In this document: piece by piece, positions 2,609 to 19,819 of the stretch
Position numbering within the stretch: position 1 is the stretch's first letter
How the letters are laid out: each line of letters begins with the position of its first letter
The notes under the pieces: model-generated
Databases searched by the model: none
Told to the model about the DNA's origin: nothing
The model's input: only the letters and a program-made list of their open reading frames with translations
Translations under genes and position numbers: made by a program
IMG/VR virus record: IMGVR_UViG_3300009182_000328
Coordinates: 1-23,415 of that record
Direction: 5' to 3' (one strand)
DNA length: 23,415 nt
Source of the DNA: a virus

Positions 2609-2616
2609 TATAAATA
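2609..2616 (+). promoter_or_regulatory. T4-type late promoter (TATAAATA)
   Basis: A perfect TATAAATA box in the only sizeable gap of this region, 43 bases before the ATG at 2660. In T4 this octamer is the sole core element of late promoters, recognised by the gp55 sigma factor with gp33 and the gp45 clamp. Its position in front of a run of about ten coupled genes of virion type fits a late operon. Confidence 0.8.
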
Positions 2617-2659: not shown

Positions 2660-3106
2660 ATGAAAACTTTTATATCTTTTCTAAAAGAAGAAGCTTCGCC
2701 AGATGCCGGTAAGCTAAAACACATACATCACGCAGAAGATAGACCACTAATGCACGGCGCCGAAGGATTCGAACATGCATTTGGTGCTTTAACACAGGCC
2801 CACGAACACATGAAGGCTAAAGCAAAAAGTAGTAATTTGACCATGAAATATGATGGTTCTCCTTCTATTGTATTTGGTCATCACCCAAAAACTGGTAAAT
2901 TCTTTGTTGCAAGTAAGTCTGCATTTAACAAGACACCAAAGATTAATCACACTGAAGCAGACATTGACAGAAACCATGGTCATGCTCCAGGACTTGCAGC
3001 AAAACTTAAAGCTGCATTGAGACACTTACCTAAGGTTACACCAAAAACTGGTGTTTATCAAGGTGATATGATGCACTCTTCTGAGGACCTACAACACCAT
3101 GACTAA
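2660..3106 (+). CDS. Ligase-like KxDG nucleotidyltransferase, N-terminal half (split gene)
   Basis: A 148-residue product. Residues 61-73 read TMKYDGSPSIVFG, matching motif I (KxDG) of the covalent nucleotidyltransferase superfamily of DNA/RNA ligases and capping enzymes; Lys63 would carry the nucleotide. GVYQGDMM near residues 131-138 resembles motif III. Motifs IV and V are absent here but present in the next reading frame, so this is the first half of an approximately 398-residue protein. The N-terminus MKTFISFLKEE has Glu10 in register with the T4 internal-protein capsid-targeting peptide. An AAAGGG ribosome site precedes the ATG. The reading frame ends at TAA 3104-3106 just where homology would continue. 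Related genes in marine T4-like phages are annotated as hypothetical; what it ligates or modifies is unknown. Confidence 0.65.
   Translation: MKTFISFLKEEASPDAGKLKHIHHAEDRPLMHGAEGFEHAFGALTQAHEHMKAKAKSSNLTMKYDGSPSIVFGHHPKTGKFFVASKSAFNKTPKINHTEADIDRNHGHAPGLAAKLKAALRHLPKVTPKTGVYQGDMMHSSEDLQHHD
3083..3087 (+). promoter_or_regulatory. Internal ribosome-binding site GAGGA for the second half
   Basis: GAGGA lies eleven bases before the ATG at 3099, inside the end of the upstream frame. It would let ribosomes start the second frame on their own, which bears on whether the split is a real two-gene arrangement or a frameshift. Confidence 0.45.
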
Positions 3107-3854
3107 AAAAGTATCATTTACACCAAATACAATCACTTATACAGCCAAAGGTTCTGAAGCTAAAAAGATTGGTGCGTCTAAAGTTGGCGTTGTAGTACAC
3201 ACAAAGTATCACGGTAATGACATTAGTGATATGACTGCACACCATGCAGTTGATCACGAAAATTTCAAACATCATCCAGATGTTCATCATCATGGTGCAG
3301 AACATGATACAGCTAAAATTAGCTATCCACAATCCGCACAAGATGAGTTCCATAAACACATGCAAGCAGCTAAAGCAATACATGACACACATGGCGCAAA
3401 GATGTATCCTGCAACCGAAAAGCATCGTGGTGAAAGTACTCACCTAACAACATACATAAACAAAACTGTTGATACTGGTGAAGTTCCTAGTGTAGAAGGT
3501 TTGAAAAAGCATATTGCAAACCAACATGCCAAAATGGCAGATAAAGTCAAAACAGAAAAAGCAAAAGCAGCTAAAACTGCTGAAGGCCAAGCTCACATAG
3601 ACCATATCGAGAAAAACAAAGAACATTATCAAAATCTATTGACAATGCACCATCATTTGGCTCAGGCTAAAAACATCCTAGTTAAGCATTTAGAAACACA
3701 TGAAGGTCATTATGAACACCACATCAATGGTAAAAAATCTAAGCCTGAAGGTTTTGTTGTAAATCACACTCCAGAATCTGGCCATACTGAGCCAACAAAG
3801 CTAGTAAATAGAGCAGAGTTTGCAAAACAAAATAGGCTAAAAGTAAGAAAATGA
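3099..3854 (+). CDS. Ligase-like nucleotidyltransferase, C-terminal half (split gene)
   Basis: A 251-residue, His- and Lys-rich product beginning 8 bases before the upstream stop. KVSFTPNTITY directly continues the fold broken off in the previous frame. PEGFVV at residues 216-221 matches ligase motif IV (EGxVhK), and TKLVNRAEF at about 233-241 has the Lys expected in motif V, so the active site would need both halves. The middle (residues 40-210) is helical, with many His residues. The frame can start at its own ATG with a GAGGA site, or be reached by skipping the single T after GAC at 3101-3103, which would read D-K-K-V-S without a break. It overlaps the kinase-fusion gene by ATGA. Confidence 0.65.
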   Translation: MTKKVSFTPNTITYTAKGSEAKKIGASKVGVVVHTKYHGNDISDMTAHHAVDHENFKHHPDVHHHGAEHDTAKISYPQSAQDEFHKHMQAAKAIHDTHGAKMYPATEKHRGESTHLTTYINKTVDTGEVPSVEGLKKHIANQHAKMADKVKTEKAKAAKTAEGQAHIDHIEKNKEHYQNLLTMHHHLAQAKNILVKHLETHEGHYEHHINGKKSKPEGFVVNHTPESGHTEPTKLVNRAEFAKQNRLKVRK

Positions 3855-5632
3855 AATCGTTTCTAGAAGTTTTAAAAGAAGAAGAATCTGGTGATGTTCA
3901 CCATGTTATGACTTTTGGTCGAATGAATCCTCCAACCACAGGCCATTTGAAAGTCATTGAGAAAGTAAAAGAAATTGCAAAGAAACATGGTGCAGACCAT
4001 ACTGTAGTTGTTTCACATTCACAAGATGCAAAAAAGAATCCTTTGTCAGCTGAACAAAAATTAAAGCACTTGAAGAGGTATTCACCAGATACACATTTTG
4101 AAGCTTCTTCTAAAGAGAAACCAACATTTCTGCAACATGCAGCTGCATTAAACAAAAAAGGTGTAACACATCTACATTTGGTTGTTGGTTCTGATCGTGT
4201 CAAAGAGATGCACGATAAGTTACACCAATATAATGGAACTCATCCTGGTGCATTGTACAACTTCAAAAAGATAACTGTTCACTCTGCTGGTCATCGTGAT
4301 CCTGATGCAGAAGGAACTGAAGGTATGTCTGGTACCAAGATGCGTGAACATGCCAAGAATAATGATTTGTCATCCTTCAGAAAAGGTGTTCCATCTCATG
4401 TTCCGGAACACCATGCAAGAGAATTAATGCGTGATGTTCGTAAAGGAATGGGATTGCATGAAAGTTACACATATGGTCGCAATAAGGCTATCTTTGTGAC
4501 TGGTGGTCCAGGTTCAGGCAAAGATGTTGTCATTCGTGAATGTATTGCTGGTCAAAATATTACAGAACACAACTTCTCACAAGTTATTGATATTCTAAAT
4601 GACAAACATAAGCTTGCAATGAAGTCTATGAACCCTCGTTATGAATCTATCCGCGCACGTAGTCCATTAATCATCAATGGACCTGCTGATGATTTGGAAA
4701 AAATTGCACATATTAAAGAAGAATTGGAAGAACTTGGATATAAGACAATGATGATCTTTGTTGACACCTCAAATAAGGTCAGTAAGGACAGAAATGAACA
4801 TCTAACCAAAATGATTGAAGAATCCACTCGTTACACTAAGTGGCAAAAATCACAATCAAATGCTCCATACTTCAATCAAATATTTGATGAATTTGTTCTA
4901 TTTGAAAATAACCTTTCTTTAGAGTTGGAAGAAGAAAATATTACAGAAACTTACTTAAAAACAAATGAATTTTTAGGCGGTGTAATTTATTCCAATACAA
5001 ATACTAATAGATTCATAAATATATACGAATCAAATAAAGGCGCAAAAGGAATTCAAAAAGCAAACTTGAAAGACAAAGGATTGTTAAAAGATAACAATAG
5101 TCCTGTTATGCAAGCACAGAGAAAAATGGGTCAACAAGATGATGTTCGTGACGGCGATGTAAAGTCAAATGGAACATATACATTTAGAACTTATGCAGAA
5201 GCTAAGTTCAACATGGATAACGATAAAGAAAAAGTTTTAAAACGTGGTAATACATCTTTGCGTGAACCTAAACTAGGCAGAATTGATGCTGTTGGTGGTA
5301 CGTTTGATACTCGTACATCAGGTCAAGGCCTAACAGGTGGTGCAGGACTGGGCAATCAAACTTATAGTGAAGATTCTATAGGTCAAGAATTTAGTAACGC
5401 TCAAACAGCAAGTGGACCTAAACCTAGAGGTGTAAGTCCTAATCCTTTGGGTGAGAAGAAAAAATTAAAAGGTTTTAAAGAGTCACTTCAATCTGGTGAA
5501 ACGGGATATGAAACTGGCGTAAGTGGAACTTTAAGTGGTGCAGCAAACAAAGAACCTATGGAAACGCCATCAGATAAGTATATTCAATCGGGTATAACAA
5601 TCAAAAATAAGAAAAAAACAGGAGCAAAATAA
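3851..5632 (+). CDS. HIGH-type nucleotidyltransferase fused to P-loop kinase, with long modular tail
   Basis: A 593-residue multidomain protein. Residues 17-170 are a cytidylyltransferase/NMN-adenylyltransferase-like domain: FGRMNPPTTGH (22-32) is the HxGH-type active site with its usual lead-in, VVGSD (111-115) lies in the nucleotide pocket, and MSGTKMRE (159-166) is the ISSTxxR-like phosphate motif. Residues 210-350 are a P-loop kinase-like domain with Walker A GGPGSGKD (218-225). The pairing recalls NadR (NMNAT plus ribosylnicotinamide kinase), but the substrates are not shown. Residues 365-593 form a low-complexity tail rich in Gly, Ser and Lys; the DNA near 4940-5060 is especially AT-rich and may be an insertion. 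The N-terminus MKSFLEVLKEE again has Glu10 of a T4-like capsid-targeting peptide. It is coupled by ATGA to the split ligase-like gene and by TAATG to the next. Confidence 0.75.
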   Translation: MKSFLEVLKEEESGDVHHVMTFGRMNPPTTGHLKVIEKVKEIAKKHGADHTVVVSHSQDAKKNPLSAEQKLKHLKRYSPDTHFEASSKEKPTFLQHAAALNKKGVTHLHLVVGSDRVKEMHDKLHQYNGTHPGALYNFKKITVHSAGHRDPDAEGTEGMSGTKMREHAKNNDLSSFRKGVPSHVPEHHARELMRDVRKGMGLHESYTYGRNKAIFVTGGPGSGKDVVIRECIAGQNITEHNFSQVIDILNDKHKLAMKSMNPRYESIRARSPLIINGPADDLEKIAHIKEELEELGYKTMMIFVDTSNKVSKDRNEHLTKMIEESTRYTKWQKSQSNAPYFNQIFDEFVLFENNLSLELEEENITETYLKTNEFLGGVIYSNTNTNRFINIYESNKGAKGIQKANLKDKGLLKDNNSPVMQAQRKMGQQDDVRDGDVKSNGTYTFRTYAEAKFNMDNDKEKVLKRGNTSLREPKLGRIDAVGGTFDTRTSGQGLTGGAGLGNQTYSEDSIGQEFSNAQTASGPKPRGVSPNPLGEKKKLKGFKESLQSGETGYETGVSGTLSGAANKEPMETPSDKYIQSGITIKNKKKTGAK

Positions 5633-7398
5633 TGTTTACTAAAAATGTAATTTCACAAGACATGATCGATGCAGTTAATAGCATCATTATGCAAGAAGAA
5701 AAAAAAGAAATGCTTTTAGAGCCAGGAAAGAAAATGGAACTAGAAACTGGTTTCCATATGGCTGCCCATGCTGCTAAGAAAGCAAATCAAACACATTTTG
5801 AATTTCAAGGTAAAAAGTATCCTGTAACTGCAAAGAGTACAGCAGAAGCTATTGAAGAAAAAAATAAGTTTGATCCTTTAAAACATGTTAAAAATCCTAC
5901 TCCAGGTGAGAAGGCAGCGGCCAAAGACGTAAAACGTGGCAGTTATGCTGACCGTGCAGCTATGTTGAGATCAGCACAAGCAGATGGTAGACTGAAAGAA
6001 GAAATCGAAGAATTGGATGAATTAAGTAAAAAGACTTTAACTTCTTATAGAATTAAGAGTATTGGTAGAGATGCTGATTTTGAAAAAAAAGGATACCAAG
6101 CAGCAGGAAAAGGACCAGGAAATGAAAAATCGGATAGACTTTTTAATAAATCTGATTTAGTAACAACCGCTCGTGATAGTGCTAAAAGAAAATTGATGAA
6201 TTCGGAAGCTATTGAAGAAGAAAAAGACGACGATAGCATGTATACAACAAAAGCACAAGCAAAGAAAATTGCTGACAAAGAAGCTGCTAAAGAAGTACAC
6301 AAGCACGAAAAAAATCTACACAAAGGTTCAAAAGAAACTAAGTTTGATGAAGAACGTCATATGTCTGACGATGAAATGGCCAAGCGTGAGAAGATTGTCA
6401 AGTCTATGAAAAAAGGTATGGCTGGTTTCAAAGAAAGATATGGCAATCGTGCTAAGAATGTAATGTATGCTACTGCTACAAAACAAGCAATGAAAGAAGA
6501 GGTTCAAGAAGCCGCAGGCGGAGTGACCGTTAAAAAAGAATATGATGATAAAGATGAGTCGGAACATGGTGTTTATCATGGAAAGAAAAAAATTGGTTAT
6601 GTAGTCCATGACAAAAAAACTGATACTCATACCGCCTATCATGGACACAAATATGGTAAAGATGATTATGAAAATTCTGACGATTTTCAGAGTCATGAAA
6701 AGGCAGTCAATCAAATCAAATCATCCGCTGGGTTGAAAGAAGAAGTCAATGTGTTAGAAGAAGGTAAAATGGACAAAATGCCATTATCTCAATTGTGGCA
6801 TAAACATGCTGAACACTCTTATCATTCTGACCAAGGTTATGGACTCGGTTCTGGAAGTATGCACCACAATTCACATGCTGCAACAGCAATTGAAAATCAT
6901 GTACGTAAACATCACGGAAATAAAGTTGCAGATGATATGTTAGATCATTCCGACCACTATGTTGCTCATGCAGAATATGCAGGTCCAAAAGACGCAGAAT
7001 ATCACGAAAAAGAAGCTGAAAAGTTGAGAAAGAAACACGGCATCAAAGGTGATTTACATGGATTTCATGAAGGTGTTCAACTTCAAGAACTAGGTGGAAT
7101 GTCCACTTCTGGTGCTTCTGGTGACATTTCAGAAGATCCGGTAGTTGACACTCTTGCTGGTCGTAAAAGTATTAATGCTTTACCAAAATCACGAGCAAAA
7201 GAAATAAAAATTTCAAATGGCCATGAGAGTGCAAAAATGGGAACATTAAAAGCTGAAGCAAAAACACCAGGTGACAATTCTGTTCCATTTGTTACAGATG
7301 AAAAATCACCAATGAGTATTGCAAAGAAATTAGCTCAGAAGTCGTTTAAAAAAATTAAAAACGAAACAATGATGGGCAAATTAGGAACATCAGAATAA
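5632..7398 (+). CDS. Long Lys/His/Glu-rich modular protein with (L/I)xE sites, putative internal capsid protein
   Basis: A 588-residue, highly charged protein with no recognisable enzyme. It is built from short modules common in marine T4-like phage proteins: EELDELSKKTLTSYRIKS (about 126-143), a segment ending GNRAKNVMYATATKQAMKEE (271-290), a His-rich YHGKKKIGYVVHD region (315-327) and a His/Tyr-rich region (385-480). Modules are separated by sites matching the gp21 prohead-protease preference (L/I)xE: LLE30, IEE77, LKE123, LDE130, IEE196, LKE370, LEE377 and LQE486, plus MKE289. This looks like a precursor cut into peptides inside the prohead, as T4 does with gp22 and the internal proteins; that is inference. 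A GGAG site and TAATG overlap set the start. Confidence 0.55.
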   Translation: MFTKNVISQDMIDAVNSIIMQEEKKEMLLEPGKKMELETGFHMAAHAAKKANQTHFEFQGKKYPVTAKSTAEAIEEKNKFDPLKHVKNPTPGEKAAAKDVKRGSYADRAAMLRSAQADGRLKEEIEELDELSKKTLTSYRIKSIGRDADFEKKGYQAAGKGPGNEKSDRLFNKSDLVTTARDSAKRKLMNSEAIEEEKDDDSMYTTKAQAKKIADKEAAKEVHKHEKNLHKGSKETKFDEERHMSDDEMAKREKIVKSMKKGMAGFKERYGNRAKNVMYATATKQAMKEEVQEAAGGVTVKKEYDDKDESEHGVYHGKKKIGYVVHDKKTDTHTAYHGHKYGKDDYENSDDFQSHEKAVNQIKSSAGLKEEVNVLEEGKMDKMPLSQLWHKHAEHSYHSDQGYGLGSGSMHHNSHAATAIENHVRKHHGNKVADDMLDHSDHYVAHAEYAGPKDAEYHEKEAEKLRKKHGIKGDLHGFHEGVQLQELGGMSTSGASGDISEDPVVDTLAGRKSINALPKSRAKEIKISNGHESAKMGTLKAEAKTPGDNSVPFVTDEKSPMSIAKKLAQKSFKKIKNETMMGKLGTSE

Positions 7399-7401
7399 AA
7401 A

Positions 7402-8118
7402 ATGAAAAATAAATCTGATTTGGTCAAAGAAATCATTAAGAAGTCTGATCTCAAACGTGGGTTTGGGTCAGACCCAAATGATCCTTGGTCGGCAAAAGCT
7501 AACATTGAAGAAAACATAACTTCAAGACGTTCTGATATCTTAAAACAGTTTTATAAAGCTATGGGTTACAATCCAAATTATGTTAGCAAAAACCAAAAGG
7601 TTGCTCAATCTAAAACTGGTAAATTCATCAAATGGAAAAGAGACCATGGAATTTTTGAAGAAGATGATATTCAAGAATCAAATGAAATATGTGAGCAATG
7701 TTTAAGTGATCCATGTATCTGTGATGATAGTCATGGATTTGTGGATGAAAGTGTTGGCGACCCACAAGCAGCAACACAATCACCTGCGGACGGAGCAAAT
7801 GGAGGTGAAGAATTGGCACCACCAAAAAGAACTGTTGGTAAAATTGTTAAAAGTGTTGTAAAGAAAAAGATGCAAGAAAATTTGTATGATTGGGAAAAAG
7901 ATGACAAATCTACACAACCATATGGAAAGAAACCATCAATAACAAAAATTGATGGAGAGAAAAACATTGGTGATGACAAACCAGATGCTAGATTAATACT
8001 TAAAGGTGGTAAAACATTGACCGGTCAAGGTCGTGATACTGTCGAAATTGATCCAATGATGAAAAATCGTGGCAAGGTGCCAGATTATAAAAATATGAGT
8101 AATGTCAATCAGAAATAA
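7402..8118 (+). CDS. Conserved phage protein with Cys-rich knuckle and DTVEIDPMM tail
   Basis: A 238-residue protein of unknown function. It lies in the same frame as the preceding gene, separated only by TAA AAA, and lacks a good ribosome site, so it may be the end of one ancestral polyprotein. Features: an N-terminal basic segment with GFGSDPNDPWSAKANI (20-35), a helical region with YNPNYVSKNQKVAQSKTGKF (56-75), a possible metal knuckle C97xxC100 and C105xC107, a flexible Gly/Ala stretch (118-140), and a C-terminal segment NLYDWEKDDKS...GRDTVEIDPMM that I recognise from other T4-like marine phages. IQE92 and MQE159 are possible prohead-protease sites. The next promoter follows at once. Confidence 0.55.
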   Translation: MKNKSDLVKEIIKKSDLKRGFGSDPNDPWSAKANIEENITSRRSDILKQFYKAMGYNPNYVSKNQKVAQSKTGKFIKWKRDHGIFEEDDIQESNEICEQCLSDPCICDDSHGFVDESVGDPQAATQSPADGANGGEELAPPKRTVGKIVKSVVKKKMQENLYDWEKDDKSTQPYGKKPSITKIDGEKNIGDDKPDARLILKGGKTLTGQGRDTVEIDPMMKNRGKVPDYKNMSNVNQK

Positions 8119-8125
8119 TAAGAAC

Positions 8126-8133
8126 AATAAATA
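8126..8133 (+). promoter_or_regulatory. Probable T4-type late promoter (AATAAATA)
   Basis: AATAAATA differs from the T4 late box only in its first base and lies in a 47-base gap, 32 bases before the start codon of a strongly initiated gene. Placement supports it more than sequence alone does. Confidence 0.55.
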
Positions 8134-8153
8134 GATAGAATACCTTTCTACCC

Positions 8154-8160
8154 AAGGAGA
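8154..8160 (+). promoter_or_regulatory. Strong Shine-Dalgarno (AAGGAGA)
   Basis: This near-perfect ribosome site sits about six bases before the ATG at 8166. It is one of the strongest in the window, suggesting high-level synthesis of the protein that follows. Confidence 0.75.
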
Positions 8161-8165
8161 AAAAA

Positions 8166-8795
8166 ATGGCATACGAATCATGGAATAATACTGATAGCGC
8201 AGGTCTTGGATTTGGACATCCAGAATGGCCTGCGACTCGTCAAACAAGAACAGTGGCACAACTAACTACAGCTAATTCAACTGCAGCAGGTGCAACAACA
8301 ATTAAATTTACATACACCGCAAATGTTGCAAACATTGGTGTTGCTGTTGGTCAATATGTAAACTATTTACCTTCACCAACATCTGATCCATCAGCAAACC
8401 TTTCATCAAATGGTTCTGTTGGTATGTTCTACTCTAACAATAAAGTCAGTTCCATTTCAGGCAATTTGGTAACTTTCACTGCAGCAACAACAGGTATTAT
8501 TCCAACATCATCAACTATCACATTTGATACTGCTATTTCTTATCCAGCAGGAAAAACAGTTGAAACAACTTACAATTCAGATGTGGTTCTTGTAACAGCA
8601 ACAAGACTAACTGCTGCAAATAATAAAATTGGTGGAAATCCAAGCATGGGTTGGGTTCACGTTAGAAAAAAGGTTAACGGGTTAACTGGTGAAGTTCGTT
8701 ACATCAGAGAAACATTAATTGCTTTAGCTAATCCAACATCTTCAAACACTGCCGGTGGTAATACCTCATGGGGTAGAGCGTTCGCTAATACCTAA
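8166..8795 (+). CDS. Putative abundant virion structural protein
   Basis: A 209-residue protein rich in Thr, Ser, Ala, Asn and Gly with alternating short hydrophobic segments (TIKFTYTANV, NLVTFTAAT, DVVLVTATRL), typical of beta-sheet virion proteins. It begins MAYESWNN and ends SWGRAFANT without any membrane, signal or catalytic motif. Its composition is unlike the Lys/His/Glu-rich neighbours. It has its own late promoter and a very strong ribosome site, so it is probably made in quantity; a capsid decoration, tail or fibre-associated protein would fit. I do not recognise the family, so the role is inferred from composition and expression signals only. Confidence 0.5.
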   Translation: MAYESWNNTDSAGLGFGHPEWPATRQTRTVAQLTTANSTAAGATTIKFTYTANVANIGVAVGQYVNYLPSPTSDPSANLSSNGSVGMFYSNNKVSSISGNLVTFTAATTGIIPTSSTITFDTAISYPAGKTVETTYNSDVVLVTATRLTAANNKIGGNPSMGWVHVRKKVNGLTGEVRYIRETLIALANPTSSNTAGGNTSWGRAFANT

Positions 8796-8810
8796 TAGTT
8801 TATTTTTATA

Positions 8811-9200
8811 ATGGGGTTTGATGATTTAAATGAAGATAACTTTGTGATGTATGCAGTTAAATGTTATACATCACCTAGTTGTTTAATGTCGGAGTTCGAA
8901 GGTGATCTTAAAAGAACGAAATATTTAAAAAGATTGTTTCGTAGATATAAGATCACCAAGAACGTTAAAGAGAGATTGATACTTAATCATATCATAATGC
9001 TCAATAACGTGTTTGGACCAGAAGCTACGTCAAGAATTTTGTTTTTTAGAATCGATGAAAAAGATTACGATTCACTAAAAACATTTTTACTTTATTTAAA
9101 TATATTACCTGAAGTTGTTAAGGGCATTAAGGGCAAAAACATAATAACAGATGTTATTCCAGTAGATATGAAGATTGCTGAAATACTAAGAAAAATATGA
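8811..9200 (+). CDS. Conserved small T4-like phage protein (unknown function)
   Basis: A 129-residue protein. NVKERLILNHIIMLNNVFGPEATSRILFF in the middle is strongly conserved, as I remember it, in marine T4-like myoviruses, where the family carries only a DUF name (possibly DUF7207). It is helical and mixed-charge, with a basic patch KRTKYLKRLFRRYK, and could bind nucleic acid or a partner protein. No good Shine-Dalgarno precedes the ATG at 8811, so expression is likely weaker than that of the gene before it. The stop overlaps the next start (ATGA). Confidence 0.6.
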   Translation: MGFDDLNEDNFVMYAVKCYTSPSCLMSEFEGDLKRTKYLKRLFRRYKITKNVKERLILNHIIMLNNVFGPEATSRILFFRIDEKDYDSLKTFLLYLNILPEVVKGIKGKNIITDVIPVDMKIAEILRKI

Positions 9201-9838
9201 AAACTTTTAAACAATTCACAGAGGCATGTTGGCCAGGTTACAGAAGAGTACCTGGTAAAAAAGCATACTCTAAAGGATCATGTGTAAAAGAAGATCATAT
9301 AGAAGAATTGGAAAATGGTCTCAAACATTTAGATGACCATGACTATGAATCAATCAATAAGTTAATGATGAAGATTTCTAAAAATCATGGCATGACAGGT
9401 AAAGAGTTGCATGATGATTTTAAATCCAAACATGGAAAAACTCCAGACGATTGGATTAATGAAGATTTAAGAAAATGGTTTAAACAAGACTGGGTTCGCA
9501 TGGACACAAAAGGTAACGTTAAAGGTCAATGCGCTAGAGAACCAGGTGAAGGTAAACCAAAATGTCTACCTAGAGCAAAAGCAAATGCAATAGGTCAAGA
9601 AGGCAGAGCAAAAGCTGCACAAAGAAAACGCCGTGAAGATCCAAATCCAGAACGCCATGGTTCACCAATAAATGTCAAGACAGAAAGTGCAGCTGCAGCT
9701 ATTGCGGCCGCTACAGCTATAGCAAAGAAAAAATCAGGTAATTATGATTCAGAAGGTTTTAGAAAAACACCATATAAAAATCCAAATCATCCTTCGAGAA
9801 AAAGCAATGCTGAAAGAGAAAGAGAACAGAACAAATGA
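9197..9838 (+). CDS. Modular basic phage protein with MKTF leader
   Basis: A 213-residue basic protein in three modules. Residues 1-10, MKTFKQFTEA, resemble the capsid-targeting leader of T4 internal proteins, but with Glu at position 9. Residues 11-32, CWPGYRRVPGKKAYSKGSCV, form a two-Cys knob. Residues 88-160 hold a recognisable module with LRKWFKQDWVRMDTKGNVKG and a CAREPGEGKPKCLP stretch followed by RKRREDPNPERHG, widely scattered among phage proteins; the paired Cys112/Cys123 suggest metal binding or a disulfide. An Ala-rich helix (165-176) and a basic tail follow. Function unknown. ATGA overlaps on both sides show co-translation with the neighbouring MKT-leader genes. Confidence 0.55.
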   Translation: MKTFKQFTEACWPGYRRVPGKKAYSKGSCVKEDHIEELENGLKHLDDHDYESINKLMMKISKNHGMTGKELHDDFKSKHGKTPDDWINEDLRKWFKQDWVRMDTKGNVKGQCAREPGEGKPKCLPRAKANAIGQEGRAKAAQRKRREDPNPERHGSPINVKTESAAAAIAAATAIAKKKSGNYDSEGFRKTPYKNPNHPSRKSNAEREREQNK

Positions 9839-10614
9839 AAACATTAAATCAATTCAGAACTGAAGTTCAAAGTTTAGAAGAAAAGAATGTGCCAACAAGT
9901 CCTGAAAAATGGGCTCGTGCTAAGGCTGCAGCTAAATCTAAATTTGCTGTTTATCCTTCTGCATATGCAAACGGCTGGGCTTCTAAGAAGTATAAAGCAA
10001 TGGGTGGTGGTTGGAAAAGCACTAACGAAGAAAAAGATCCAGAATATTCTGACCCATATATGGCAGTCAATCAACTAAAAACAATCATGCATAATGCAGA
10101 AGAAATGATTGAGTTGATTGGTGATAATACTGATTTGCCTGAATGGGTTGAATCAAAGATTACATTGGCTGAAGACTATGTGATGACTGTTGCCAACTAT
10201 ATGCGTAGTGAACTTAAAGAAGAACATAACCCTGATGTAATGTTTGATGTTTTAGAAGAATTAGTCATGGAAATTGCAGAAGTAAACAATATTGATCCTG
10301 AAGTGATTTGGGAAGACCTAGATGACGTTTCAGATGAAGAGTTGTTTGAGACTGCTGCATGGAGACGCAAAGAAGGTAAAGACCCTAAGGGTGGTCTAAA
10401 TCGTAAAGGTATCGCATCTTATCGCAGAGAGAATCCAGGTTCACATTTGTCTATGGCAGTAACAACAAAGCCATCAAAACTAAAACCAGGTTCTAAGGCA
10501 GCAAATCGCCGTAAATCATTCTGTGCTAGAATGGGCGGCATGCCAGGTCCAATGAAAAAACCAAATGGTGAACCATCACGTAAAGCACTAGCATTGAGAA
10601 AGTGGAACTGCTAA
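9835..10614 (+). CDS. Modular phage protein (DUF5872-like and DUF6321-like modules) with MKT leader
   Basis: A 259-residue protein of stacked modules. The leader MKTLNQFRTE has Glu10 in register with T4 internal proteins, followed by SLEEKN. Residues 18-61 (NVPTSPEKWARAKAAAKSKF, then YPSAYANGWASKKYK and GGGW) match what I know as DUF5872. Residues 71-125 are a helical module with DLPEWVESKITLAEDYV, common in marine phages. LKE129 ends it. An acidic linker (131-172) leads to residues 175-259, AWRRKEGKDPKGGLNRKG through KSFCARMGGMPG to the terminal LRKWNC, matching DUF6321. No function is known for these modules. DUF numbers are from memory and need checking; the module boundaries are visible. 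Confidence 0.6.
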   Translation: MKTLNQFRTEVQSLEEKNVPTSPEKWARAKAAAKSKFAVYPSAYANGWASKKYKAMGGGWKSTNEEKDPEYSDPYMAVNQLKTIMHNAEEMIELIGDNTDLPEWVESKITLAEDYVMTVANYMRSELKEEHNPDVMFDVLEELVMEIAEVNNIDPEVIWEDLDDVSDEELFETAAWRRKEGKDPKGGLNRKGIASYRRENPGSHLSMAVTTKPSKLKPGSKAANRRKSFCARMGGMPGPMKKPNGEPSRKALALRKWNC

Positions 10615-10976
10615 TGAAAACATTTAAAGATTTTGTAAAAGAAGATGCAAGTCCAATCACACACCATGTTGTACATATTAAAACTGGTGATATTGTAGGT
10701 AAATATACTAACTTAAAATCTGCTCAACGTGCAGCCGATAAAAAAGACTCATCTTATGGTGCAGTAGCGCATCGTGTAGTTTCATTGCCTATTAAAGAAG
10801 ATGGTATGGGTGCTGGTGCAGTATCCGCAGGATTACCAAACACAACTGGTGGTGGTCAAGTTGATGGCATGGGACAACCTCCAGGAAGCAAGTCTGGCGA
10901 ACCAGGTGTACATCTTCCTAGAAAGAAAAATAGTCCAGTGATGGGTTACACAAGCAGAAAACCACCTAAGATGTAA
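10614..10976 (+). CDS. Small modular phage protein with MKTF leader
   Basis: A 120-residue protein started at the ATG in a TAATG overlap, not the GTG at 10602. The leader MKTFKDFVKED has Glu10 in the T4 internal-protein register, followed by ASPI much as in the gene at 2660 (EEASPD). Residues 17-58 (HHVVHIKTGDIVGKYTNLKS, ending YGAVAHRVV) form a small alpha/beta module recurrent in phage proteins. The rest is a Gly/Pro-rich flexible tail ending RKPPKM. It is the last of the MKT-leader genes before the lysis cassette. Function unknown; packaging in the capsid is inferred from the leader. Confidence 0.5.
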   Translation: MKTFKDFVKEDASPITHHVVHIKTGDIVGKYTNLKSAQRAADKKDSSYGAVAHRVVSLPIKEDGMGAGAVSAGLPNTTGGGQVDGMGQPPGSKSGEPGVHLPRKKNSPVMGYTSRKPPKM

Positions 10977-10984
10977 GGTTGATT

Positions 10985-11386
10985 ATGTGGATATTACAAT
11001 GGTTACCTGATTGGTTTTTTTATATTGCTTTTTTTGGTGGACTAGCAGTATTTGCTGCGAGTTATTTTTTGCCATTGTATAAATCAATTGCACAATTAGT
11101 TTCTGTCATTGCAATAGTAGTATCTGCATATATGTGTGGCGGAATTGCAGACAACAAAGATTGGCAAGATAAAGCAAAAGAACTAGAAAATAAAGTTGCA
11201 TTAGCAGAAGCTAAATCTGCGACAGAGACAGTTAAGATAGTTAACAAAGTTGTTAAACAAAAAGAATTAATTACACAAAAAGGTGATGATATCATTCATT
11301 ACATAGACAAGGAAGTTGTCAAGTATGATAACACATGTGTATTACCAAAAGAATTTATAGAAGCAATTAATAAGGCTACAGAATGA
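10985..11386 (+). CDS. Putative inner-membrane spanin (Rz-like)
   Basis: A 133-residue protein starting at ATG 10985; a TTG at 10979 is in frame but less likely. Two hydrophobic segments (about residues 10-28 and 35-54) are followed by a charged coiled coil (57-110) and a short tail with CVLPKEFIEAINKA. A membrane anchor plus periplasmic coiled coil, immediately followed by a lipoprotein gene and an endolysin, is the layout of the i-spanin/o-spanin pair that fuses inner and outer membranes at lysis. Two anchors instead of the usual one is unusual and would put the N-terminus outside if the coiled coil is periplasmic. A holin role is a less likely alternative. Confidence 0.6.
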   Translation: MWILQWLPDWFFYIAFFGGLAVFAASYFLPLYKSIAQLVSVIAIVVSAYMCGGIADNKDWQDKAKELENKVALAEAKSATETVKIVNKVVKQKELITQKGDDIIHYIDKEVVKYDNTCVLPKEFIEAINKATE

Positions 11387-11643
11387 TTAAATATGCATTA
11401 GTTTTATTGTTGTTAACTGGTTGCTCAACAGTAGTTCCTGTCAAATCTAAATTTCCAGAAGCACCAGAAATTTTGTTGGAAAAATGTTCAACTTTAAAAA
11501 AAGTAAACGATGATGATAAATTGAGTGATTTATCTAAAGTCATTGTTACCAATTATACCAACTATCATATTTGTTCTACAAAGAATGATGGATGGATTGA
11601 ATGGTACAACACACAAAAGAAAATATATGAGGGGGTTAAATGA
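11383..11643 (+). CDS. Putative outer-membrane spanin lipoprotein (Rz1-like)
   Basis: An 86-residue protein with a short signal peptide, MIKYALVLLLLTGC, whose LLTGC is a lipobox with lipidated Cys14. The mature 73 residues contain two further Cys (35 and about 63) and are periplasmic. It overlaps the i-spanin-like gene and the endolysin gene by ATGA, giving one translationally coupled lysis unit. In spanin pairs the o-spanin is held in the outer membrane and binds the coiled coil of the inner partner. Sequence identity with named Rz1 proteins is not expected; the call rests on lipobox, size and position. Confidence 0.65.
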   Translation: MIKYALVLLLLTGCSTVVPVKSKFPEAPEILLEKCSTLKKVNDDDKLSDLSKVIVTNYTNYHICSTKNDGWIEWYNTQKKIYEGVK

Positions 11644-12251
11644 TTACATTAGAACAATTAAAATCCGCAATTGGTAACAATCCATATGCAGAACAATGGT
11701 TAGAAGCACTGAATAAACTTTTACCAGATTATGAGATTACTACACCACAACGTATTGCTGCATTTATGGCAGAATGTGCCCATGAGTCTGCTAACTTTAC
11801 CGCAATTCAAGAGAACTTAAATTACAGAGCAGAGTCATTACGCAAAACTTGGCCATCACACTTTGAAACAGATGCCATCGCTGCACAATATGCACACAAC
11901 CAAGAAGCAATTGCAAATCGTGCATATGCTGGTCGTATGGGTAACGGTGATGAAGCATCTGGTGATGGTTGGAAATTCTGTGGTCGTGGCCTAATTCAAT
12001 TGACAGGAAAAGAAAACTATCAATTCTTTGCAGACTCTGTTGGAATTAGCATAGACGATGTTCCTGCGTACTTGGCAACATTTGAAGGTGCAGTACAGTC
12101 TGCATGTTACTTTTGGGAATCCAGTAATTTAAACGCACTTGCTGATGGTGGTGCAATCGATCACATCTCAAGAATTATTAATGGTGGTAATCTTGGTCTA
12201 AAAGAACGCCATGAAAATTATGTTAAATTTTTAAATGTGTTTAGTGGATAA
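11640..12251 (+). CDS. Endolysin, glycoside hydrolase family 19
   Basis: A 203-residue single-domain enzyme that cuts peptidoglycan (GH19 chitinase/lysozyme fold). AAFMAECAHESANF (residues 40-53) carries the catalytic Glu49 in the HES motif; QENLNYRAE (57-65) supplies the likely second acid. The signature of phage GH19 lysins follows: YAGRMGNGDEASGDGWKFCG (96-115) and RGLIQLTGKENY. ISRIINGGNLGLKERHENY near the C-terminus is the usual closing helix. No signal peptide is present, so it needs a holin to reach the cell wall; a holin gene follows directly (TAATG overlap). Confidence 0.92.
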   Translation: MITLEQLKSAIGNNPYAEQWLEALNKLLPDYEITTPQRIAAFMAECAHESANFTAIQENLNYRAESLRKTWPSHFETDAIAAQYAHNQEAIANRAYAGRMGNGDEASGDGWKFCGRGLIQLTGKENYQFFADSVGISIDDVPAYLATFEGAVQSACYFWESSNLNALADGGAIDHISRIINGGNLGLKERHENYVKFLNVFSG

Positions 12252-12694
12252 TGCCAGAACAAACAACACCTTCAAACAATGAAGATTGGATGCAAAAGAA
12301 ATGGCGTCCAGCTATGGGTTGGATGTACATGGTTATATGTACACTTGACATGGGTGTTTTTCCTATTCTTTGGAGTATATTACAAGTATTAACACATCAA
12401 CCAGTTACACAATGGCAACCACTAACACTCCAGGGTGCGGGTTTGTTTCATTTAGCAATGGGTGCGGTTCTTGGTATTGCTGCATGGGGTAGAACACAAG
12501 AGAAAGTTGCCGGTGCGGCAAGTAATTCGCCACCACCAATTATACCAAATGCTCCCTTGACAACACCTTCAACACCAGTATACACTGGCGGTGTTCCGTC
12601 TGCAAGTAATGGACCAGTAACACCAAATCCTATAAATAATTCAACATTAACTAAATCTGCGGGCCCAAGTTTTGGACCTCCGCCTGCTCTGTGA
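12251..12694 (+). CDS. Putative holin
   Basis: A 147-residue membrane protein. The N-terminus carries WRPAMGWMYMVICTLDMGVFPILWSILQ (residues 18-45, first membrane segment) and LTLQGAGLFHLAMGAVLGIAAWGRTQEK (58-85, second segment), resembling the 3-TM holin family seen in gene-transfer agents and marine phages. Residues 88-147 are a Pro/Ser/Thr/Asn-rich tail, presumably cytoplasmic. Position straight after the endolysin supports the call. The coding DNA of the tail contains a perfect late-promoter box (12631-12638) serving the genes downstream. Confidence 0.7.
   Translation: MPEQTTPSNNEDWMQKKWRPAMGWMYMVICTLDMGVFPILWSILQVLTHQPVTQWQPLTLQGAGLFHLAMGAVLGIAAWGRTQEKVAGAASNSPPPIIPNAPLTTPSTPVYTGGVPSASNGPVTPNPINNSTLTKSAGPSFGPPPAL
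12631..12638 (+). promoter_or_regulatory. T4-type late promoter (TATAAATA) inside the holin gene
   Basis: A perfect TATAAATA within the low-complexity tail of the holin gene (codons for Pro-Ile-Asn-Asn), 65 bases before the ATG of the small secreted protein. Being inside a coding region weakens the case, but distance and neighbour fit. Confidence 0.5.
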
Positions 12695-12703
12695 GGAACT
12701 AAA

Positions 12704-12883
12704 ATGAAAAAAGCACTATTAGTATTGATTACTCTTTCTTTTATGTCTATCGCTCATGCAGAGAGTAAAAAAGTTTGCCATGATTTTGTAGAAAATAATA
12801 AAAAAGTTCAACGTTGTAAAGTCATTAAGACACACAAAAAAGTTGACGGTACAAAAATACCAAGTAAAAAGGTATCAAAATAA
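12704..12883 (+). CDS. Small secreted basic protein (signal peptide)
   Basis: A 59-residue gene with a clear GAGGA ribosome site (12692-12697 region) seven bases before the ATG. The first 19 residues are a classic signal peptide ending AHA, for cleavage before Glu20. The mature 40-residue peptide is Lys-rich and has two Cys (25 and 38) that could form a disulfide in the periplasm. It sits within the lysis cassette, between the holin and the XhlA-like gene, and may tune lysis or act on the host envelope, for example in superinfection exclusion. No family recognised. Confidence 0.65.
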   Translation: MKKALLVLITLSFMSIAHAESKKVCHDFVENNKKVQRCKVIKTHKKVDGTKIPSKKVSK

Positions 12884-13236: not shown

Positions 13237-13256
13237 ATAACTCATTGGTTTTTGTT

Positions 13257-14258
13257 ATGTCTATTTTCATTGATAGAAAATTCTTGCTCCAACTTTCGCC
13301 AAAATTGCGTCTTTTCTCTAAGAAGAAAGATGACTTATACAATTTTCGGTGTCCTCTTTGCGGAGACTCGCAAAAAAATAAAACAAAATGCCGTGGTTAT
13401 GTTTACCGCAAAAAGAATGACTACTTCTATATGTGTCATAACTGTGGTGCATCCACCTCGTTCTTTAACTTCTTAAAGCAAGTTGATCCATCTCTAGTTG
13501 AAGAATACCAACTAGAACGATATAAGAATTCTGCAAATACAAACTCACCTGAACCCACATTCTCGGAATTAAAAGTAAAACCTGTTTTCAAAAAGAAAGT
13601 TGATTTACCATCAATTGATTCTTTACCAGATGGTCACTTTGCAAAAGATTATGTAATTGGTCGTAAGATTCCTGAATCATTTTATTCATCATTATATTAT
13701 GCAGAAGATTACAAAGCATTTGTTGATTCTTTTGGTGTTGAAAAAGATATTATGCAAGGTGACAAACGTCTTGTTATTCCTTTCTATGATAAAGAAGGAA
13801 ACATAACCGGTTTTCAAGGCCGAGCACTTGGTGAATCAAAGATACGTTATATCACAATTAAATTGGCTGATGATGTTCCGCGTATCTATGGTCTTGATCG
13901 TGTTGATGAAACAAAAAAAATCTTTGTGTTTGAAGGTCCAATCGATTCTATGTTTATTGAGAATTCGGTTGCAGTTGCCAGTTCGGCACTTGAATCGGCA
14001 GTTGAATATCTAGATAAATCCAAGATTGTTTTAGTATTTGATAATGAACCACGAAACAAAGAAATTATGAAATTGATGGAACATGCAATCGATAATCATT
14101 TCAATGTTGTTGTGTGGCCAGAAATGATTAAGGAAAAAGATGTTAATGATATGATTCTAGAAGGATTTGACAACGAAGAATTATATGATATAATGAACAA
14201 ACACACTTATGTTAACCTCCGTGCTAAAATGGAATTTGTGAATTGGAAAAAAGTATGA
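13257..14258 (+). CDS. 61: DNA primase, T4 gp61-like
   Basis: A 333-residue primase that makes RNA primers for lagging-strand synthesis with the gp41-type helicase. I use ATG 13257; the upstream TTG at 13245 is in frame but less likely. The N-terminal zinc-binding domain has FRCPLCGDSQKN (Cys32, Cys35) and CHNCGAST (Cys60, Cys63), as in T4 gp61 (FRCPVCGDS, CxNC). The Toprim-like catalytic core has KRLVIPFYDKEGNITGFQGR, KIFVFEGPIDSMFIEN and LVFDNEPRNKEI, with the EGPID Glu and DNEP Asp as metal ligands. There is no classical ribosome site, and initiation may be weak. It is first in an operon from the promoter at 13198. Confidence 0.9.
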   Translation: MSIFIDRKFLLQLSPKLRLFSKKKDDLYNFRCPLCGDSQKNKTKCRGYVYRKKNDYFYMCHNCGASTSFFNFLKQVDPSLVEEYQLERYKNSANTNSPEPTFSELKVKPVFKKKVDLPSIDSLPDGHFAKDYVIGRKIPESFYSSLYYAEDYKAFVDSFGVEKDIMQGDKRLVIPFYDKEGNITGFQGRALGESKIRYITIKLADDVPRIYGLDRVDETKKIFVFEGPIDSMFIENSVAVASSALESAVEYLDKSKIVLVFDNEPRNKEIMKLMEHAIDNHFNVVVWPEMIKEKDVNDMILEGFDNEELYDIMNKHTYVNLRAKMEFVNWKKV

Positions 14259-18836: not shown

Positions 18837-19819
18837 TTAAAAAAACTAAACAGGATGTAACTTCAGAAAGAAGTTATTTCAAACCGTTTAATTATGCTTG
18901 GGCTTATGATGCTTGGTTGAAACACGAACAGTCACATTGGCTTCACACAGAAGTTCCAATGGCTGAAGATGTTAAAGATTGGAAAAAGAAATTAACTGAA
19001 GGTGAGAAACAATTCCTAACTCACATCTTTAGATTCTTTACTCAAGGTGATATTGATGTTGCAGGAGGTTATGTTAAAAACTATCTGCCATACTTTCCAC
19101 AACCTGAAGTAAGAATGATGTTGTTGGGTTTTGCTGCTCGTGAAGCACTACACGTTGCTGCTTACTCCCACTTGATTGAAACACTTGGATTGCCAGACAC
19201 AACATACAATGAATTTCTTGAATATGCAGAGATGAAAGAGAAACATGATTATGTCATGGATATCTCTGCACAGAACACCACGAAAGAAAATACAGCAGCA
19301 CACATTGCAGTATTCTCTGCATTCACCGAAGGTATGCAATTGTTTAGTTCTTTCATTATGTTGTTGAACTATCCTCGTCACGGCAAGATGAAAGGTATGG
19401 GTCAAATCATCACCTGGTCTATTGTTGATGAAACACAACATGCCGAGAATATGATCAAATTGTTCAGAACATATATAAACGAAAATCCAGAAATTTGGAA
19501 TGATGAACTTAAAGCCCGTATCTACACCATTGCAGAAAAGATGGTTGAACTAGAAGATAAGTTTATTGATTTGGCTTTTGGTGTAAACGAAGGTGAAAAT
19601 CTAACAAAAGAAGATGTAAAGAAATATATTCGATACATTGCTGACCGTAGATTGATTTCACTCAGTTTAAAAGGCATCTTTAAAGTTAAGAAGAACCCGT
19701 TGCCGTGGGTTGAAGAAATGATCAATGCTCCTACGCATACTAATTTCTTTGAAAATCGTGCAACTGATTATGCAAAAGGTGCTTTGTCTGGTGATTGGTC
19801 TGATGTATGGGCTAATTAA
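18833..19819 (+). CDS. nrdB: Ribonucleotide reductase class I, small subunit
   Basis: A 328-residue radical-generating subunit starting in the ATGA overlap. All expected ligands of the di-metal site can be placed: Asp73 (QGDID), Glu104 and His107 (REALH), Glu166 (TEGMQLF), Glu200 and His203 (DETQH). Spacing equals that of E. coli NrdB for 84-115-118 and 204-238-241. The radical Tyr is present as Tyr111 (ALHVAAY, four after His107), so this is a tyrosyl-radical enzyme. The C-terminus AKGALSGDWSDVWAN should dock on NrdA. The protein is about 50 residues shorter than E. coli NrdB. Confidence 0.95.
   Translation: MIKKTKQDVTSERSYFKPFNYAWAYDAWLKHEQSHWLHTEVPMAEDVKDWKKKLTEGEKQFLTHIFRFFTQGDIDVAGGYVKNYLPYFPQPEVRMMLLGFAAREALHVAAYSHLIETLGLPDTTYNEFLEYAEMKEKHDYVMDISAQNTTKENTAAHIAVFSAFTEGMQLFSSFIMLLNYPRHGKMKGMGQIITWSIVDETQHAENMIKLFRTYINENPEIWNDELKARIYTIAEKMVELEDKFIDLAFGVNEGENLTKEDVKKYIRYIADRRLISLSLKGIFKVKKNPLPWVEEMINAPTHTNFFENRATDYAKGALSGDWSDVWAN

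Follow-up and report, generated by a model that had tools for sequence, protein, structure and literature searches.

The internal proteins of phage T4 (IPI, IPII and IPIII) are products of late genes and have hypervariable bodies behind a ten-residue leader, in which residues 4 and 7 are hydrophobic, residue 8 is Leu or Ile and residue 10 is Glu; IPI and Alt are injected. Mutants of IPIII have shown that residues 4 and 7 of this capsid-targeting sequence (CTS) matter for targeting and residues 8 and 10 for processing, the gp21 protease cleaving after L/I-X-E (PMC9026906). The window analyzed here, a 23,415-nt IMG/VR virus fragment (IMGVR_UViG_3300009182_000328) from a marine T4-like phage, encodes five proteins that begin with leaders of this kind (Table 1; genes are named by their first nucleotide), and we consider it probable that these leaders are T4-type CTSs carried by modular cargo. 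Compared with the T4 internal proteins, the bodies in the window include larger proteins and enzymes, and the leaders are clustered in a block whose genes, in related phages, sit between the helicase gene gp41 and the primase gene gp61. The window bodies showed no similarity to those of IPI, IPII or IPIII (best E 0.07), and no paper on the leader sequence of T4 turned up in the literature searched.

All five leaders begin at genuine open reading frame (ORF) starts, as in the initial annotation; the listed ORF of the 10614 gene opens at GTG 10602, and its sensible start is ATG 10614. Residues 4 and 7 are hydrophobic in all five, and Glu10 is likewise present in four, the exception being 9197 with Glu9. 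The five bodies do not significantly resemble one another (best E 0.13), and the block, which had been described as one coupled unit, is not continuous, because the leaderless genes 3099, 5632, 7402, 8166 and 8811 are interspersed in it. A strict pattern fitted to the five leaders, MK[ST][FLYM]..[FLYVIM].{1,2}E, matched 5 of the 38 called window genes, compared with a mean of 0.010 (maximum 1 in 200 shuffles) when the residues after Met1 were permuted within each 16-residue N-terminus; this shuffling rules out a chance origin. Because these same leaders were used to build the pattern, its weight rests on other genomes. In a 160.7-kb relative (G001) it matched 4 of 218 genes, and in another long relative (G002) 2 of 218, all within the corresponding block; in T4 it matched 3 of 266, namely ipII, ipIII and gp61.1.

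The strongest single argument comes from DUF6267 (PF19782), the family to which the 2660 protein belongs, because its fixed positions coincide with the functional positions of the T4 CTS. From 80 loci we obtained 49 distinct complete N-termini. In all 49, residue 4 is Phe, residue 7 is Phe or Tyr, residue 8 is Leu (Ile in one) and residue 10 is Glu, while residues 2, 3, 5, 6 and 9 vary, as do both sequence and length from residue 11 on. Leu8 is specified by all six of its codons and residue 7 by four, so that selection acts on the protein. Among the homologs of the 3851 cytidylyltransferase (n=16), M1, K2, F4 and E10 are invariant.

Residues 8-10 form an L/I-X-E sequence (LKE) at 2660 and 3851, where gp21 cleavage after Glu10 is plausible; at 10614 the residues are VKE and the case for cleavage is weaker. 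The 9835 protein has LEE at residues 14-16, and the ITE site of T4 IPI likewise lies well past residue 10. The predicted model of DUF6267 gives the leader at low confidence, which fits disorder. The window fragment itself is without head-assembly genes, but members of the gp21 family (PF03420) are encoded by its relatives G001 (E 5e-31) and G002 (E 3e-32), as well as by HTVC008M, Melnitz and P-SSM2, and the N-termini of gp21 and gp22 in G001 and G002 hold L/I-X-E sequences (YITEG; KLSEA, AILEG).

Late expression of the leader genes is suggested by a conserved T4-type promoter element, TATAAATA, before 2660, which is the candidate signal. Of 45 relatives, 29 carry the element no more than 120 nt ahead of the DUF6267 start, usually at -45 to -54; the background frequency is 2.1% of 120-nt windows. 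The initial annotation had placed every leader gene behind a late promoter, which holds for 2660; the only other candidate, a one-off AATAAATA at 8126, is ahead of the leaderless 8166, and none was found at the other leader genes themselves.

At corresponding loci in relatives the same leader precedes other bodies, such as a helical domain (L009 at 13372, and L042) or the DUF6321 module alone (L028, 9884-10186). L026 has an added leader protein (5971), and in L039 (2667) the leader stands on a homolog of a protein that is leaderless in L007. The proposal that a leader shared by unrelated bodies is a head-sorting signal is well supported by these exchanges and by the residue constraint, the gp21 of close relatives, the promoter and the virion homologs described below.

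The family of 3851, the cytidylyltransferase/NMNAT-like cyanophage proteins of T4-GC 190, has been detected in purified virions of S-SM1 (PMC3037559), S-CREM2 (PMC10665884), S-SCSM1 (PMC9602691) and S-SZBM1 (PMC9146016), with no targeting mechanism proposed. The members from P-SSM2, S-SCSM1 and S-CREM2 carry the leader, as 3851 does, and the S-SZBM1 protein begins with MRFRQFIIEA, a leader variant shorter by one residue; relative to these proteins, 3851 has in addition a P-loop kinase domain and an extended disordered tail. In S-SCSM1, seven annotated virion proteins are encoded between mazG and primase, i.e., in the corresponding block. With position 3 of the pattern relaxed, four of the 224 S-CREM2 genes matched, and all four products (a SAM hydrolase, an APH-like kinase, the cytidylyltransferase and gp13) are virion proteins (p = 0.0023); there was no match among the 174 undetected genes, an outcome not known in advance. 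The idea that the leader marks virion proteins in general was rejected, as most of them are without it. Two virion-detected proteins end in leader-like sequences (S-SCSM1_93, RTFKEFLEYIE; S-CREM2 gp12, KTFRDFLN), which may be a C-terminal version of the signal.

Several observations weigh against this reading. The S-CREM2 authors named contamination as an alternative (PMC10665884; CsCl preparations). Position 3 was relaxed after the S-CREM2 virion N-termini had been seen, so that the enrichment counts as support, not proof. Leader matches among virion proteins were one of two in S-SCSM1 and none of two in S-SZBM1, where the test was prospective and did not increase the support; the enrichment over the three phages pooled (p = 0.005) falls to p = 0.48 without S-CREM2. 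Two similar leader proteins encoded between terminase genes, S-SCSM1_30 and S-SZBM1_191, were not detected in the published virion lists, and the many leaderless virion proteins of the block indicate that the leader is not the sole entry route. The L/I-X-E site is absent at residues 8-10 from 9197 (FTE) and 9835 (RTE), and the DUF6267 homologs of HTVC008M and S-PM2 are without the leader.

If the leaders are CTSs, the prohead core would bind the tagged proteins late in infection through hydrophobic residues 4 and 7, and these proteins would be enclosed while the shell assembles. Where L/I-X-E is present, gp21 would strip the leader during maturation, and the bodies would then stay inside the DNA-filled head. 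The leader would be a portable module, beneath which the lineage exchanges ligase-like, cytidylyltransferase-kinase, basic Cys and gp61.1-type bodies. For the phage of the window we infer core binding and cleavage, and also delivery into the host. Injection of the tagged proteins would be a reasonable extension; as a guess, the delivered enzymes might act on nucleic-acid ends or in the metabolism of nucleotides when infection begins.

One rival reading contests only delivery. The prohead-targeted proteins may instead be assembly or DNA-condensing factors that are not delivered, a view compatible with sorting and one that we take seriously while judging it rather unlikely. Several of the bodies are small and basic, and the gp61.1-slot protein resembles the N-terminus of the capsid protein itself, as would suit such factors; on the other hand, apparently intact nucleotidyltransferase and kinase motifs would be odd in assembly factors, and injection of IPI and Alt is established knowledge. 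Another explanation, improbable in our estimate, is that the leader acts as a helix for sorting to, or docking on, something other than the prohead core, such as a membrane, the replisome or another assembly intermediate, with detection of some carriers in virions being incidental. The location of the block between helicase and primase genes favors this explanation, as do the leaderless virion proteins and the two leader proteins missing from virions, but in T4 the same pattern marks proven internal proteins, and the fixed positions are those of the CTS, among them the protease positions 8 and 10, for which a docking helix would have no need. That the leaders are one gene's 5' end, spread by duplication and recombination and having no common function, is very improbable: the leader starts do fall within conserved overlaps with the preceding gene, a setting that would favor 5'-end exchange, but a neutral relic would decay evenly, so that the fixity of residues 4, 7, 8 and 10 amid variable ones, with several codons in use at 7 and 8, argues against mere descent, and leaders recur in phages as distant as T4, P-SSM2, S-CREM2 and S-SCSM1.

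Cyanophage virions have repeatedly yielded nucleotidyltransferases, kinases and a SAM hydrolase, for which authors have considered contamination possible and the entry route has stayed unexplained. A leader of the T4 pattern would provide a concrete, testable entry mechanism for these enzymes, and sequence alone would suffice to predict further injected proteins of marine T4-like phages.

The 10614 protein occupies the slot of T4 gp61.1, which has the leader MKTFKEFIKE, a short Gly-rich segment and a Lys-rich tail, and whose gene lies directly upstream of primase gene 61. The 10614 protein differs from gp61.1 by an inserted domain, and a probable lysis cassette separates its gene from the primase gene. 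(The region in question, 10979-12883, probably encodes a membrane protein, a lipoprotein and an endolysin-like protein.) In relatives, the leader and the Gly/Pro-rich tail of the slot protein are kept, and the middle domain is exchanged or lost: it is absent (L017, L018), helical (L009), of the window type, or double (L007).

In a phmmer comparison T4 gp61.1 matched T4 gp23 (E 7e-07), the alignment spanning the place where gp23 is cleaved and its mature arm. When each proteome was scored against its own gp23 arm, the pre-primase protein ranked first in T4, KVP40, Aeh1, S-SCSM1, S-CREM2 and S-SZBM1 (z 6 to 16). The likeness was weak in G001 and G002 (z 3-4), Melnitz and P-SSM2, and this own-proteome ranking found none for the slot proteins of HTVC008M and S-PM2; in RB49 and 44RR the position immediately ahead of primase holds no protein of the gp61.1 type. 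The pairing of slot proteins with their own gp23 exceeded all 20,000 permutations, a result to which clade structure contributes; the phage's own gp23 is not always the best match. In most slot proteins a basic stretch follows the arm-like segment. The slot proteins of S-SCSM1 (PMC9602691) and S-CREM2 (PMC10665884) are virion-detected. The gp23 gene of the window's phage is outside the fragment; 10614 shares the slot of the gp23-mimic genes.

A gp61.1-type protein could, judging from these alignments, sit at the inner-shell site of the arm and tether DNA or cargo there. T4 gp61.1 thereby gains a specific hypothesis, namely that it is targeted to the head and imitates the arm of the capsid protein; a literature search made solely under the name gp61.1 found no description of the resemblance to gp23. 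The broader idea that T4-like phages share an unrecognized cargo-loading system, consisting of a portable leader and a pre-primase capsid-arm mimic, with enzymes delivered along with the genome, is put forward tentatively, and we would not expect it to hold in full.

Two of the leaders precede probable enzymes. DUF6267 spans two ORFs, 2660 and the overlapping 3099, which score 164.6 and 160.5 bits (cut-off 27), and KYDG is invariant among its homologs. Its predicted model has a mean predicted local distance difference test (pLDDT) score of 81, with residues 148-153 at low confidence, as if disordered. Foldseek alone found no significant match to this model, and searches of solved-structure sequences with DUF6267 and with 3851 gave no matches. 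After re-alignment of the Foldseek candidates with VIA-align, RNA and DNA ligases accounted for almost all of the 50 best rows at Z ≤8.5, a range of values that can arise fortuitously. DUF6267 is likely to be a ligase-type nucleotidyltransferase, because the match list is coherent and the KxDG motif is present. It shares KxDG, EGFVV and KLV motifs with the RNA/DNA ligase superfamily, from which it differs by having ~10% identity, a long helical insertion and, in the clade of the window, a split gene. The initial description of 2660 as ligase-like thus stands as to motifs and predicted fold, but the gene consists of two ORFs.

The split, with its ATGACTAA overlap, is conserved among the closest relatives of the window; in other relatives DUF6267 is one ORF of 390-406 residues. 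In the split gene of L186 the overlap is ATGA and the second ORF retains its ATG, which makes a programmed frameshift less likely than gene fission. The strict sequence [LI]-x-E-[AGS] occurs in 37 intact DUF6267s from viral contigs only at residue 10 and in the interdomain linker. The linker sites (residues 146-153) are confined to one group of relatives and lie at the position of the split, so that gp21-type cleavage there and gene fission may be alternative ways of arriving at the same enzyme in two pieces. The leader is confined to the first half, to which the second would need to be bound in order to get in.

The description of 3851 as a nucleotidyltransferase-kinase agrees with its motifs. 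CTP_transf_like (PF01467) scored 36.4 bits (cut-off 21), and the nucleotidyltransferase and P-loop motifs, GRMNPPT-GH included, are invariant in its homologs. The C-terminal third of the protein is disordered, and its predicted model (mean pLDDT 61) is usable only to about residue 355.

Table 1. Coordinates of the leaders, their genes and related features
Feature	Source	Coordinates	Strand	Remarks
T4-type late promoter element TATAAATA	window	2609..2616	+	51 nt upstream of 2660
Leader MKTFISFLKE	window	2660..2689	+	hydrophobic 4 and 7; L8-K-E10, gp21-type site
Leader MKSFLEVLKE	window	3851..3880	+	
Leader MKTFKQFTE(A)	window	9197..9223	+	
Leader MKTLNQFRTE	window	9835..9864	+	nearest L/I-X-E is LEE at 14-16
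Leader MKTFKDFVKE	window	10614..10643	+	
N-terminal part of DUF6267	window	2660..3106	+	KYDGSPS; model positions 2-123
C-terminal part of DUF6267	window	3099..3854	+	leaderless overlapping ORF; PEGFVV, TKLVNR; model positions 132-371
Cytidylyltransferase-like and P-loop kinase enzyme	window	3851..5632	+	GRMNPPTTGH, MSGTKMR; GGPGSGKD
Leaderless protein, unknown family	window	5632-7398		charged-residue-rich; position conserved in relatives
Leaderless protein, unknown family	window	7402-8118		charged-residue-rich; position conserved in relatives
Probable virion protein, leaderless	window	8166..8795	+	slot of cyanophage T4-GC 537 'head protein'
DUF7207 protein, leaderless	window	8811..9200	+	conserved block marker; E 1.1e-37
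Basic Cys-containing modular protein	window	9197..9838	+	net charge about +15; phrog_727, phrog_10346, phrog_23735
Modular protein	window	9835..10614	+	weak DUF5872-like segment; C-terminal DUF6321 module
gp61.1-slot protein	window	10614..10976	+	leader, then a small domain and a Gly/Pro-rich tail (PNTTGGGQVDGMGQPPGSKSGEPGV) containing basic residues
Slot gene	T4	18966-19130	-	
Slot gene	KVP40	13248-13724		
Slot gene	Aeh1	8427-8894	-	
Slot protein S-SCSM1_97	S-SCSM1			
Slot protein gp160	S-CREM2			
Slot protein S-SZBM1_134	S-SZBM1			
Leader protein S-SCSM1_30	S-SCSM1	44215-44535		105-106 residues
Leader protein S-SZBM1_191	S-SZBM1	122311-122628	-	105-106 residues
DUF6267 linker sites, e.g. FLTE|A, YIIE|A	relatives			L193, L195, L198, L202, L207, L208, L220, L223, L233, L243

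As to the remaining block genes, those in the slot corresponding to 8166 are virion-detected in S-SCSM1 and S-SZBM1. The Cys modules of the 9197 and 9835 proteins (CWPGY..., GKPKCLP... and DUF6321) are both shared by and shuffled among cyanophage and pelagiphage proteins, some of which are annotated as structural.

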